From assembly GCA_947361615.1 (NCBI GenBank), contig CANAJP010000011.1, positions 1 to 39,966 on the forward strand: a DNA stretch of 39,966 nucleotides, given 5' to 3'. The notes under the pieces are model-generated. The model was not told where the DNA came from, searched no databases, and saw only the letters and a program-made list of their open reading frames with translations. This document shows, piece by piece, positions 3,335 through 36,105 of this stretch (position 1 is its first letter; each line of letters starts with the position of its first letter). The translations under genes were made by a program, and so were the position numbers. Source of the DNA: an uncultured Candidatus Melainabacteria bacterium (GTDB lineage Bacteria; Cyanobacteriota; Vampirovibrionia; Gastranaerophilales; Gastranaerophilaceae).

Positions 3335-3578
3335 TGTCATGCTGAACTCGGTCGACTGAGTCGACAGCCATAGTGGGGCGGTTGATAAAACTCCATGCTG
3401 TCATCCCGAACTTGTTTCGGGATCTGTCAAACGACACCGACAGAATTCAACGCTGGCCAGATGCTGAAACTGTCTTGGATTATTCGGCCTTGTCCAGAAG
3501 CGTGGTTCTGGACAAGTTACGGGCTGGGGTACTTCGTACCACGGCGCCCTACCGAAAATCCGCAAGTTCAGCATGACA
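3335..3578. repeat. Dispersed intergenic element, copy 1 (MITE-like, structured)
   Basis: A 244-base element bounded by perfect 14-base terminal inverted repeats, TGTCATGCTGAACT at 3335-3348 and its complement at 3565-3578. Inside are a palindrome GTCGACTGAGTCGAC (3351-3365), a nested TCATCCCGAAC...TTTCGGGAT hairpin near 3402-3422, and a 23-base block (3455-3477) identical to 36003-36025 in copy 2. A stem pairs 3474-3487 with 3552-3566. It encloses an 11-bp hairpin (3489-3516) with loop GCGTGG and a second hairpin (3521-3549) with inner stem GGTAC-TTC-GTACC. Short ORFs across it are not credible genes. Confidence 0.85.
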
Positions 3579-12912: not shown

Positions 12913-14199
12913 ATGAAAAAGTTTTACATTCACACAATGGGCTGTAAGTCTAACCAATTTGAAACATCAATAATCATAGAAAACCTGACGACTCACGGTA
13001 TGGAACAGGTCAAAAGCGTTGAAGAAGCAGATTATTTTATTCTGAACTCCTGCACAGTAACGCACAAAAGCGACAACGAAGCGTTTTATCTTTTGCGCAA
13101 CGCTAAACATAAAAATGCCAACATTATAAATATTCTAACCGGCTGTATCGCTCAGGTGGAAAAAGAAGAACTTTTAAAAAAAGATTATATTGATTTTGTT
13201 ATCGGAAACGATGAAAAATTAAAACTTTACGAATGCCTCACAAGCGGAGAAAAAATGGTTGCCGGTGATATTATGCACCAGACGGAGTTTAACAGAGTCG
13301 TTCTGAGCGACATGTCCAAAACCCGCGCAAGCTTGAAAATTCAGGACGGTTGCGACAACCGATGCACATATTGCATTATCCCGTTCGCCCGCGGCAAAAG
13401 CAGAAGCGCAGACAGCAAATTCATCATTGAACAAATCAACAATTTTGCCGACCATGGGTTCAAAGAAGTTGTATTCACAGGCATTCACATCGGCCAGTGG
13501 GGAAAAGATTTCGGGCTGGAACTCCTAGACCTTTTAAAAGAAGTTGAAGAAAAAACACATATTCACCGTTATCGACTGGGTTCACTAAACCCACTTGAAA
13601 TAACCGACGAAATGCTGGATTTTCTCTCTAAATCCGAAAAATTTGCTCCGCATTTTCATCTTTCACTGCAATCAGCCTGCAACAAGACTTTACGCGCCAT
13701 GAACCGCTTCTACACTGTTGAATTTTATTTGGAACAAATCGAGCGCATAAATGAAATGTTCGACCTGCCGTTTCTGGGAAGCGATATCATTGCAGGGTTT
13801 GCGGGCGAAACAGAGGAAGACTTTGAAATAACTCGCCAGAACCTTGAAAAATCCGGATTAACTCAAATTCATACATTCCCGTACTCAATCCGTCAGGGAA
13901 CAGTCGGTGCCGGACGCGACGGACATCTTCCGGACAGTGTAAAAGAAGAGCGCGCAAACATAATCAAAGCGATTTCAAAACGAAAATACGATGAATTTGT
14001 ACAAAAAAATATCGGAACAGTGCGTGAAATCCACATAGAAAAACGCCCTCAAAAAGCCACAGGGCTTCTCAAAGGCGTTAGTGAAAATTATTTAACTGTT
14101 GTGACCGACAGCAAGGACTTAAGCCTTACGAACACTCTGCAAAAAGTTCGCCTGACAGAAGTCCGCGACGGTAAAATTTTTGGTAAAATCATCGTTTGA
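12913..14199 (+). CDS. mtaB: tRNA t6A37 methylthiotransferase (MtaB)
   Basis: Radical SAM enzyme that adds a methylthio group to t6A37 of ANN-decoding tRNAs. The N-terminal UPF0004 domain has its three cluster cysteines (C11 in MGCKSNQFE, one in LNSCTVTH, one in TGCIAQ). The radical SAM cluster CDNRCTYC is at 147-154, and a TRAM-like C-terminus follows. FARGKSRS after the cluster and LGSLNPLEI fit MtaB better than MiaB or RimO. I start at 12913, not at the ATG 60 bases upstream, because the conserved KKFYIHTMGCKSNQFE begins here. Its last 11 bases overlap the convergent prepilin gene. Confidence 0.92.
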   Translation: MKKFYIHTMGCKSNQFETSIIIENLTTHGMEQVKSVEEADYFILNSCTVTHKSDNEAFYLLRNAKHKNANIINILTGCIAQVEKEELLKKDYIDFVIGNDEKLKLYECLTSGEKMVAGDIMHQTEFNRVVLSDMSKTRASLKIQDGCDNRCTYCIIPFARGKSRSADSKFIIEQINNFADHGFKEVVFTGIHIGQWGKDFGLELLDLLKEVEEKTHIHRYRLGSLNPLEITDEMLDFLSKSEKFAPHFHLSLQSACNKTLRAMNRFYTVEFYLEQIERINEMFDLPFLGSDIIAGFAGETEEDFEITRQNLEKSGLTQIHTFPYSIRQGTVGAGRDGHLPDSVKEERANIIKAISKRKYDEFVQKNIGTVREIHIEKRPQKATGLLKGVSENYLTVVTDSKDLSLTNTLQKVRLTEVRDGKIFGKIIV

Positions 14200-15215
14200 T
14201 ACATCTGACAAGAGCAGACCCCGTCCTAGGCGTAACTGAAATATGCCCGTTCCCGAAAGAGAAGTACGTACCATACAATGCACCATTATCCACTGAAAGC
14301 TTTGACGTCCAATAAACCTTTGTCGTTTCCATATTACCAACTAGATCTCGGTTAACAAATAAAGTTATAGCCTCATACAAATTTGGCAACCTACTTTCAC
14401 TATCATAAGAACTACAAGCTTTAGGTGCTGCATTACCAACAATAGTTCCCTGTAGATTTGACGCCAGTGGTACAGCGGTCGACACAACTGAATCTACAGA
14501 ATTAACTGCAGTTATAAAACCGATATCTTTTCCAACAGTATTCGGCCCTTTTGTTCCATTCAAGTCATACACAAAATTCACACAAACATACGGCTGTGAT
14601 TGCATTGTAGTTCGAGACTCAAAATCTGCCGAACAATTAGGATTGTAAAACACGGCTATACTTTCCCCGTTTGCTGTTTCAAATGCGGCAGCCTTAGTAT
14701 CCAATTGTGAATAACTGTATGGATTGCCATTATAAGCCAGCCACGAAACATTTACCATATCAGAATTTAATTCAGACATTTTTAAAGGAAATGGAGTTAT
14801 TATATCACCTTTCATTGTTGTAAGTTTATTGGGAATTCCACAATCCTGCAGGTGCTCACTGTCACAAATATTATTAATTTTTAAGACTTTTGAAAGTCCA
14901 CTGGCGACAAAAGTTTCTGCGGCTGTATCTTCTGCATCGCTTGCACCTGCTGAACTTTCTTCTTTTAGGGTTCCATAACCATTTAATGCCGGCATTAACG
15001 CTATCGCCTGCGAAAATCTTGCATAAAGCGCTTTGCGCTGAGTATTCCAGGTGCGCTCGTTAATATTACCTGTCAAACTCGGTAACGTAATTGCTGCTAC
15101 CACGCCGATGATTGTTAGGGATAATAAGATTTCAGCCATCGTAAAACCACGGCTAGTGGTCTTCCTTAGAGGCCCCCCCCCCCCCTGCTGGGATTAATAG
15201 AGTTCTATGTTTCAT
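14189..15215 (-). CDS. Type IV prepilin-like protein 1, out of frame at a G tract
   Basis: Secreted, pilin-like surface or pseudopilin protein. The ATG at 15215 follows AAAGGA by 8 bases and encodes MKHRTLLIPA, then 13 G. As read the frame runs into a stop a few codons later. With 12 or 15 G it continues through PLRKTTSRG and the prepilin cleavage site G/FTMAE (phenylalanine +1, glutamate +5), then the hydrophobic helix ILLSLTIIGVVAAITLP and a roughly 300-residue globular part with paired cysteines. The in-frame ATG at 15139 lies inside the cleavage site and could not give a processable prepilin. KGPNTVGKDIG and SRLPNLYEA blocks recur in prepilin 2. It overlaps mtaB by 11 bases at the 3' ends. 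A sequencing error in the tract is the main alternative to phase-off. Confidence 0.82.
15173..15185 (-). repeat. 13-G homopolymer in prepilin 1
   Basis: Thirteen C on the plus strand, that is G on the coding strand, starting directly after codon 10 (GCA) of the prepilin gene. The downstream pilin frame requires a multiple of three. Confidence 0.95.
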
Positions 15216-15254
15216 ATTGTCCATCCTTTCTATAGTTAGTTTAAACCATGTTTC

Positions 15255-31501: not shown

Positions 31502-32579
31502 TTATCGTTTAACACACCATGTAGGATATGGTTCACGAGCATTCCAGTCATCAATTTCACCGGTGGCCATATTCGCTGAAATCGACACAGTTGCATTATT
31601 ATCAGGACGCACCGCCAGCCGTGATGACCAATAAACTGTTTCGGTAAAACCAACATGCTTAAATAAATCTTTATTTACAAACATAGAATAAGACTCCTCC
31701 AAAGTTGGAAGTCTGTATTCAGAATCATAATTTGTACAAAGTTTTGAAGCATTTTTATAACTTCCACTCGGTAAGGTTTTTGTTGCAGGATATGGAGCAA
31801 CAACCACAGGATCACTAGGATACATAACCGTCATAACCCCAATATCCTTACCAACAGTATTCGGCCCTTTGCTTCCATTCAAATCAAAAATAAAATTAGC
31901 GCAAACTGTTCGTTGATATAAATCCCCCTCAGCGCGTCCGCCATAAGCACCCCAGTGAAGAGATTGAATATCACCAACACAATACGGGTTTACATAAACA
32001 ATAACACTTTCACCGTTAGCGGTTTCAAACGCTGCGGCTTTAGTATTCATTATGTAAAACGATTGCAATCCATTATGTAGTGAGCCAGCCATCAAAGAAT
32101 TAAGCTCTTTTAAAGTTTTAGGAGTACTTATTGTTCCGCTTAATGTCGTAATTTTTGACACAATACCGCAATCTTGCAGATTTTCTGAACAAATATTATT
32201 AATTTTAAGAACCTTAGAAAGCCCAGCCGTTATAAAAGTTTCGGCCGCAGTATCAGTGATAGTGCTTCCACTTGCGTCCTCGGTCACGGTTCCAAACCCG
32301 TTGACTGCCGGCATCAATGATATCGCTTGTGAAAACCTTGCATAAATCGCTTTTCGCTGTGTATTCCAAGTACGTTCGTTAATATTACCGGTCAATGACG
32401 GTAAGGTTATCGCCGCAACTACGCCAATAATTGTGAGAGATAAGAGGATTTCCGCCATAGTAAATGCACGATTCGTCGTCCAAGCGTTCGGGAGGCAATG
32501 GATTGCTCCCGACTCAGTCGGGCGGTTAAGAAAACTCCCCCCCCCCCCCTGCAAATGTTAAGACATTGTTGTTTTCCAT
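31502..32579 (-). CDS. Type IV prepilin-like protein 2, out of frame at a G tract
   Basis: Paralogue of the gene at 14189-15215. The ATG at 32579, preceded by AAAGGA, encodes MENNNVLTFA, then 13 G. As read the frame meets TAA within four codons. With 12 or 15 G it continues through a 24-residue leader segment to A/FTMAE and the helix ILLSLTIIGVVAAITLP. The -1 residue is Ala instead of the usual Gly. The globular part keeps blocks of prepilin 1 (KGPNTVGKDIG, YDSEYRLPTLEES, a final C-V-K-R) separated by very different segments. Part of the leader is coded by repeat-like palindromes. It has its own promoter and terminator. A reading from a TTG at 32554 would bypass the tract but has no ribosome site. 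Confidence 0.82.
32537..32549 (-). repeat. 13-G homopolymer in prepilin 2
   Basis: Thirteen C on the plus strand. As in prepilin 1 the tract begins directly after codon 10 (GCA), and the pilin frame needs a multiple of three. Confidence 0.95.
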
Positions 32580-32604
32580 AATAATCCTTTCTTTTTATAT
32601 GATT

Positions 32605-35877: not shown

Positions 35878-36105
35878 TGTCATGCTGAACTCGTTTCAGG
35901 ATCTATCCAGTATTCCGAGGGCATGTTGAAGATTAAAAATTCAACAAAAGCTTAGCGTCGCGTAAGAAAATTATTCCTTTGTTATATTTTAAAAGCAGCA
36001 TCGGCCAGATGCTGAAACTGTCTTGCTCGACTCGCATAAAACGGCACCGCGAAAAACGTGGTTTTCGCTTAGTGCCTCTGCTCGCTCGCGCAGTTCAGCA
36101 TGACA
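35878..36105. repeat. Dispersed intergenic element, copy 2 (MITE-like, structured)
   Basis: 228 bases bounded by TGTCATGCTGAACT (35878-35891) and its perfect complement (36092-36105), the same termini as copy 1. It shares the 23-base block at 36003-36025 with copy 1. A hairpin GCGAAAA-ACGTGG-TTTTCGC (36049-36068) sits inside GGCAC/GTGCC (36043-36047, 36072-36076). The left half differs from copy 1 and has a GTTGAA...TTCAAC hairpin near 35924-35944. It fills most of the gap 35864-36178, in which I see no gene. Confidence 0.85.

Follow-up and report, generated by a model that had tools for sequence, protein, structure and literature searches.

Two prepilin genes with poly-G tracts in the wrong register

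Why would a prepilin gene carry a run of 13 G between its start codon and its pilin, in a register that leaves the two out of frame? The question is raised by two minus-strand genes in the window, by which we mean the whole 39,966-nucleotide stretch of DNA analysed (contig C11 of a 1.83-Mb assembly). The host is a Gastranaerophilus-like, non-photosynthetic cyanobacterium. The tracts of these two genes are the only G/C runs of at least 8 in the whole window.

The head of prepilin 2 (32550–32579, minus strand; L012) comprises 30 nt, ATG GAA AAC AAC AAT GTC TTA ACA TTT GCA, and encodes MENNNVLTFA. It is preceded by the ribosome-binding-site (RBS)-like motif GAAAGG (32586–32591, minus strand), which stands before nearly all heads of the family. 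The head runs directly into the G13 tract (32537–32549, minus strand; C13 on the plus strand); next comes AGTTTTCTTAACCGC. A linker of 72 nt (SFLNRPTESGAIHCLPNAWTTNRA; 32465–32536, minus strand), with homologues in L007 and in L114 and L145 of another species, separates the tract from TTTACTATGGCGGAA (FTMAE) at 32464. The mature pilin (31502–32464, minus strand) starts with FTMAE, spans 320 amino acids and has a predicted C-type-lectin-like C-terminus. The initial annotation had described ten codons ending in GCA, then G13, one base off the FTMAE frame; the sequence bears this out, and the ATG-to-FTMAE frame indeed requires a tract of n = 0 mod 3, with 12 or 15 G as the ON length.

Prepilin 1 repeats this geometry on the same strand, as had been claimed: its G13 tract (15173–15185), for which sequence and frame test likewise give an ON length of 12 or 15, lies at the same codon and with the same one-base offset from FTMAE. 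The GAAAGG motif (15225–15230), the 30-nt head from ATG to GCA (15186–15215; MKHRTLLIPA), a 27-nt linker (15146–15172; PLRKTTSRG, L011) and a mature pilin of 318 amino acids (14189–15145, FTMAE at 15145) complete the gene, and the two mature pilins are 55% identical. The two heads had been taken as unrelated. This part of the initial annotation does not hold: both belong to one degenerate 30-nt head cassette, with a consensus like MKNRNVNIYA and a GAAAGGATGG-type RBS, which was met dozens of times.

A large family of tract-bearing prepilins

The host genome contains 92 FTMAE sites, from which 88 distinct, related type IV prepilins can be read, 86 of them with a full-length mature ORF. At least 55 of these prepilins carry a tract of 9–14 G in the leader peptide, mostly right behind codon 10. 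Most of the pilins that lack a tract are truncated by contig ends, and about seven have an ordinary short leader. The pattern GCA+G10 occurs 40 times, compared to 0 for the reversed-pattern control; in six other genomes of the genus it occurs 17–34 times in five and not at all in one, and in about 40 other genera of the family 0–1 times. These counts exclude chance as the source of the paired tracts in the window, as the initial annotation had suspected, and the genome-wide search that it called for returned 55 loci here and further copies in five more species of the genus. Named tract-bearing relatives include Candidatus Gastranaerophilus phascolarctosicola Zag_221 and other Gastranaerophilales.

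The common unit consists of a GAAAGGATGG-type RBS, ATG, nine codons, the G tract, a linker of 12–462 nt and FTMAEILLSLTIIGVVAAI. A second head class has the form ATG...CCTTGTCATATGGCCCTGTTAAGTA-Gn-CAAG, with the tract 46–50 nt past the ATG. The first 55 residues of the mature pilins are near-invariant and the later blocks hypervariable, giving a median pairwise identity of 54%. Linkers are near-identical in the paralog pairs L022/L242, L049/L069 and L068/L244, the mature pilins of which are only about 60% identical; on sequence comparison, this suggests that leader cassettes have been shuffled between pilins.

Outside the genus, one genome alone (G009, L269–L298), from another genus of the family, is tract-rich and shows the same tract design. 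It contains 91 tracts of at least G9, with a different prepilin head (MKNLFTRA, FTLAE) and no bAvd match. A parallel and an ancient origin of its tract system are both possible.

A dispersed palindrome, GTCATNCNGAACTNGNTTCNGNATCT, occurs at 3400–3425 and 35879–35904 of the window, and often forms inverted pairs. It has 134 exact matches in the host genome, including translated, in-frame copies in many prepilin linkers, and none in G003, G006 or G008. Loci of the JAMPIJ01 assembly (L100, L102, L121 and others) encode Gastranaerophilus pilins under the title Fusobacterium sp. NALB_7963_5, and one of its pilin loci is identical to a locus of G003; the assembly looks mislabelled. Poly-G/C tracts also lie within nine non-pilin ORFs: L039 (CDP-glycerol glycerophosphotransferase-like), L058 (ABC1 kinase-like), L062 (PRTase-CE), L051 (RHS-repeat) and the unnamed L014, L046, L059, L063 and L066.

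The reading frame is conserved through variable linkers

The frame analysis covered six genomes of the genus and 92 class-1 loci, which as paralogs are not fully independent. The distance from tract to FTMAE is divisible by 3 in 89 of the 92, a rule kept by about 40 different linker lengths (12–462 nt). At the required tract length, which is 12 or 15 in nearly all cases, the frame from ATG to FTMAE is open in 87/92. Where the distance is at least 100 nt, the ON frame is open in 40/43 loci, compared to 0/43 in either other frame. A stop or frame break was found at five tract loci of the host genome (L004, L005, L016, L054 and L067). Because the frame is kept open through such variable linkers, the tract is translated and its frame under selection: the long homopolymer falls within the translated part of the ORF, where a change of one or two G breaks the frame.

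Only 30 of the 92 class-1 loci are at ON length. A conserved frame combined with mostly out-of-frame tracts is, as far as sequence can tell, the mark that ON/OFF phase variation by slipped-strand mispairing leaves. A different start codon, already in the FTMAE frame at the tract lengths observed, was considered and rejected as a general explanation, given the TAG (class-2 heads) or TGA (TTGACA heads) directly before the tract. Prepilin 2 of the window has TTG CAG before its tract, which is not conserved.

A candidate contingency switch

The G tract very probably serves as a contingency (phase-variation) switch. A run of G11–13 in the translated prepilin leader, just past the conserved head, would change in length by single bases through slipped-strand mispairing. 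When n = 0 mod 3 (class 1), ribosomes starting at the ATG would read through about four glycines and the variable linker into the FTMAE prepilin; with any other length, early termination or an out-of-frame run would turn the pilin OFF. Prepilin peptidase would cut away the segment with the glycine run, so the mature pilin would be independent of tract length. With such a switch on most of the ~88 paralogs, which differ in their lectin-like domains, combinatorial variation of the pilus surface could result. We infer slippage in cells, cleavage of the leader and, for the pilins, a surface or antigenic function. The earlier suggestion of a designed switch module shared by this pilin family gains support from the 55 loci of the host genome, the five further species and the frame kept through hypervariable inserts. 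A switch also fits the tract lengths, which range from 9 to 15 between loci and include both ON and OFF states; near-identical paralog heads in Zag_221 (L123) carry 13 and 12 G. The tracts inside non-pilin ORFs of the host genome and the matching design in a second genus point the same way.

Loss of MutS as a cause was ruled out, as MutS1 and MutS2 are both encoded in the genome; with MutS present, the slippage rate may be modest. Unusually uniform tract lengths (mostly 13 in the host genome) also speak against simple free slippage, as does their register: among the 47 host-genome loci with checked start sites, 39 exceed the ON length by one G, 5 match it and 3 are at +2. An IMG/VR scan for other strains gave four matches, all unrelated.

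Why most tracts sit one base above the ON length

The +1 excess is present in head classes with differing ON lengths (12, 11 and 10), and is seen also in the second genus (22/29 loci in G009); of three pilins targeted by the retroelement, two show it as well. Poised-OFF populations and recoding could both account for this bias. Under recoding, +1 would be the working state: slippage of RNA polymerase or ribosomal frameshifting would drop the extra base in some products, G13 genes would be held at a set low expression and the DNA tract would seldom change. The excess across head classes and genera fits this proposal, as do ORFs that stay intact though most are OFF by sequence. However, a shift that gains a base offers no rescue, leaving base skipping as the requirement, and ON, +1 and +2 loci are all present. 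In two genomes, JAMPIJ and Zag_221, 12 G (ON) is the commonest length. We regard a +1 working state as unlikely.

It is also conceivable, and in our view quite improbable, that the tract-bearing copies form a silent archive serving recombination, in the manner of pilS and pilE, with the G run acting as a hinge rather than as an expression switch. Most assembled copies are OFF, a few canonical short-leader pilins have no tract, and the L022/L242 and L068/L244 pairs described above, with near-identical linkers on diverged pilins, would fit such recombination. Yet the copies possess their own start codon, RBS and full ORF, and conservation of frame over linkers of up to 462 nt would be needless in an archive.

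The initial annotation had cautioned that a systematic homopolymer miscall could produce the same error twice. In this case the real tracts would be in frame and the extra G a miscall; alternatively, the runs would be dark-cycle G. Runs of 20–54 G at contig ends of the host assembly (L034, L040, L043, L050 and L070) are most likely such artefacts and were left out. However, embedded tracts recur across six assemblies of this genus and turn up in another genus as well; one of these assemblies was sequenced by HiSeq 2000, a four-colour platform that has no dark-cycle G. This is the platform of Zag_221 (PMC4040986), where Ns lie inside the tract at 11 of the loci fetched; Illumina assemblies, those of meningococci among them, often break at poly-G tracts (PMC4235727). 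Within the host assembly, six of the nine non-pilin tracts (10–14 in length) are ON, taking as ON the length that gives the longest spanning ORF, compared to 5/47 for the pilins (P = 0.0009). This contrast makes it unlikely that a +1 miscall affects all tracts alike. The concern is thus largely answered by independent assemblies and in-frame non-pilin tracts; we retain an artefact only as a very slim possibility, and the tract itself would be real even if its length were miscalled. A contingency switch remains our preferred reading.

The mature pilins are predicted to carry a C-type-lectin-like domain

The mature pilins begin with a near-invariant FTMAEILLSLTIIGVVAAI, which supplies F(+1) and E(+5) of a type IV pilin, and have a hydrophobic N-terminal helix that spans residues 3–50 in the structural model. 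NCBIfam pilin models gave weak matches below cut-off. The residue preceding FTMAE, for which the prepilin criterion is G at −1, is always A or G across 89 loci, and often A. Structure prediction of the mature pilin (pLDDT 90.2) yielded an N-terminal helix and a C-terminal domain whose predicted fold is C-type-lectin-like. The best Foldseek match was the C-terminal domain of Legionella Lcl (probability 1.00, E = 1.5e-3), followed by C-type lectins; probabilities are near 1, yet E-values begin at 1.5e-3. No match to PF07603 (Lcl_C, Lcl/DUF1566) exceeded the cut-off, the best scoring 23.1 bits against 34.9.

A diversity-generating retroelement targets a member of the family

Contig C32 (5000–17900; L300) harbours a complete diversity-generating retroelement with reverse transcriptase (RT), Avd, template repeat and variable repeat. 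The RT is the only one found with RVT_1, and bAvd scored above cut-off. Another gene of the FTMAE pilin family ends in the variable repeat, which differs from the template repeat at 11 of 158 nt, all at template adenines. In the host genome, the target gene is cut by a contig end ahead of its leader. The target leaders of three sister species carry an open-frame tract, with G11 in G005, G15 in G004 and G12 in G002, such that retroelement target and poly-G leader coincide on one gene; no poly-G tract was found in the target leaders of G003 and G006.

The two window pilins do not contain the variable repeat, both template matches of the genome being on C32; they are paralogs of the target, not targets themselves. 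Overall, the paralog tips do not show the retroelement signature, with 35% mismatch at template A compared to 42% elsewhere. One paralog (C1:90468) has a template-adenine bias (Fisher P = 0.002, nominal as the best of 87); the other paralogs show no such bias. Avd is present in all seven genomes of the genus and missing from tract-rich G009, so retroelement and poly-G are separable. The retroelement was rejected as the driver of poly-G: G006 has bAvd without GCA+poly-G, and tract-rich G009 has no bAvd. Tentatively, three layers could be at work, in which the retroelement makes the tips, duplication archives them over about 90 paralogs and poly-G selects which are displayed, each held one above ON such that a single contraction would activate it. 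The bias in C1:90468 would hint at the archiving step.

Comparison with known systems

We found no literature linking Gastranaerophilales to phase variation, or a diversity-generating retroelement to a prepilin, within a search of incomplete coverage. Homopolymer phase variation is classically a feature of host-adapted Proteobacteria. The mechanism proposed here is a known one, in a new lineage and at unusual scale; in sister species it is stacked on a retroelement-hypermutated gene, and the presumptive switching would offer a testable system for surface diversification by a commensal. Standard gene callers will give these tract-bearing prepilins a wrong start or omit them.

The neisserial opa and pilC repeats lie in signal-peptide coding sequence. 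The opa family, with 11–12 gene copies in gonococcus, carries CTTCT repeats and pilC carries poly-G (PMC5953494). As in those genes, a repeat within the reading frame would switch a multigene surface family or pilus protein ON and OFF; unlike there, the leader of a type IV prepilin holds the repeat, a poly-G tract followed by a variable linker, on at least 55 paralogs of one genome in a different phylum. Neisseria phasomes reach maxima of 47–54 loci in meningococci and gonococci and up to 82 in N. lactamica (PMC5953494). The system described here, concentrated on one pilin family, equals or exceeds most of these in scale, and its host lineage is an uncultured one from the gut that descends from cyanobacteria. 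Campylobacter jejuni, with 29 poly-G/C tracts of at least 7 (PMC4965091) and no mismatch repair (PMC4235727), is similar in having many coding poly-G tracts in a small, AT-rich gut-bacterial genome. Its tracts lie mainly in glycan-modification genes, whereas the host genome analysed here encodes MutS and has its tracts predominantly in a single pilin family.

Neisseria pilE and pilS offer a similar repertoire, in which the N-terminus of the variant pilins is conserved and the C-terminal part hypervariable. The pilS copies are silent and promoterless; in contrast, each copy here has its own start codon, RBS and full ORF. Rickettsia palindromic elements are dispersed palindromes tolerated in frame in coding sequence. 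The palindromes of the prepilin linkers are alike in their general features, but are inserted between tract and cleavage site, where leader processing is predicted to take them off the protein. Finally, the retroelement resembles those that diversify C-type lectins (DUF1566/Lcl; PMC6642488) in its RT, Avd, template repeat and a variable repeat that ends a lectin-fold gene and changes at adenines only, and DUF1566 targets with putative pilin structures have been mentioned (PMC6642488). It differs from them in that its target is an FTMAE pilin, which three sister species combine with a poly-G leader.
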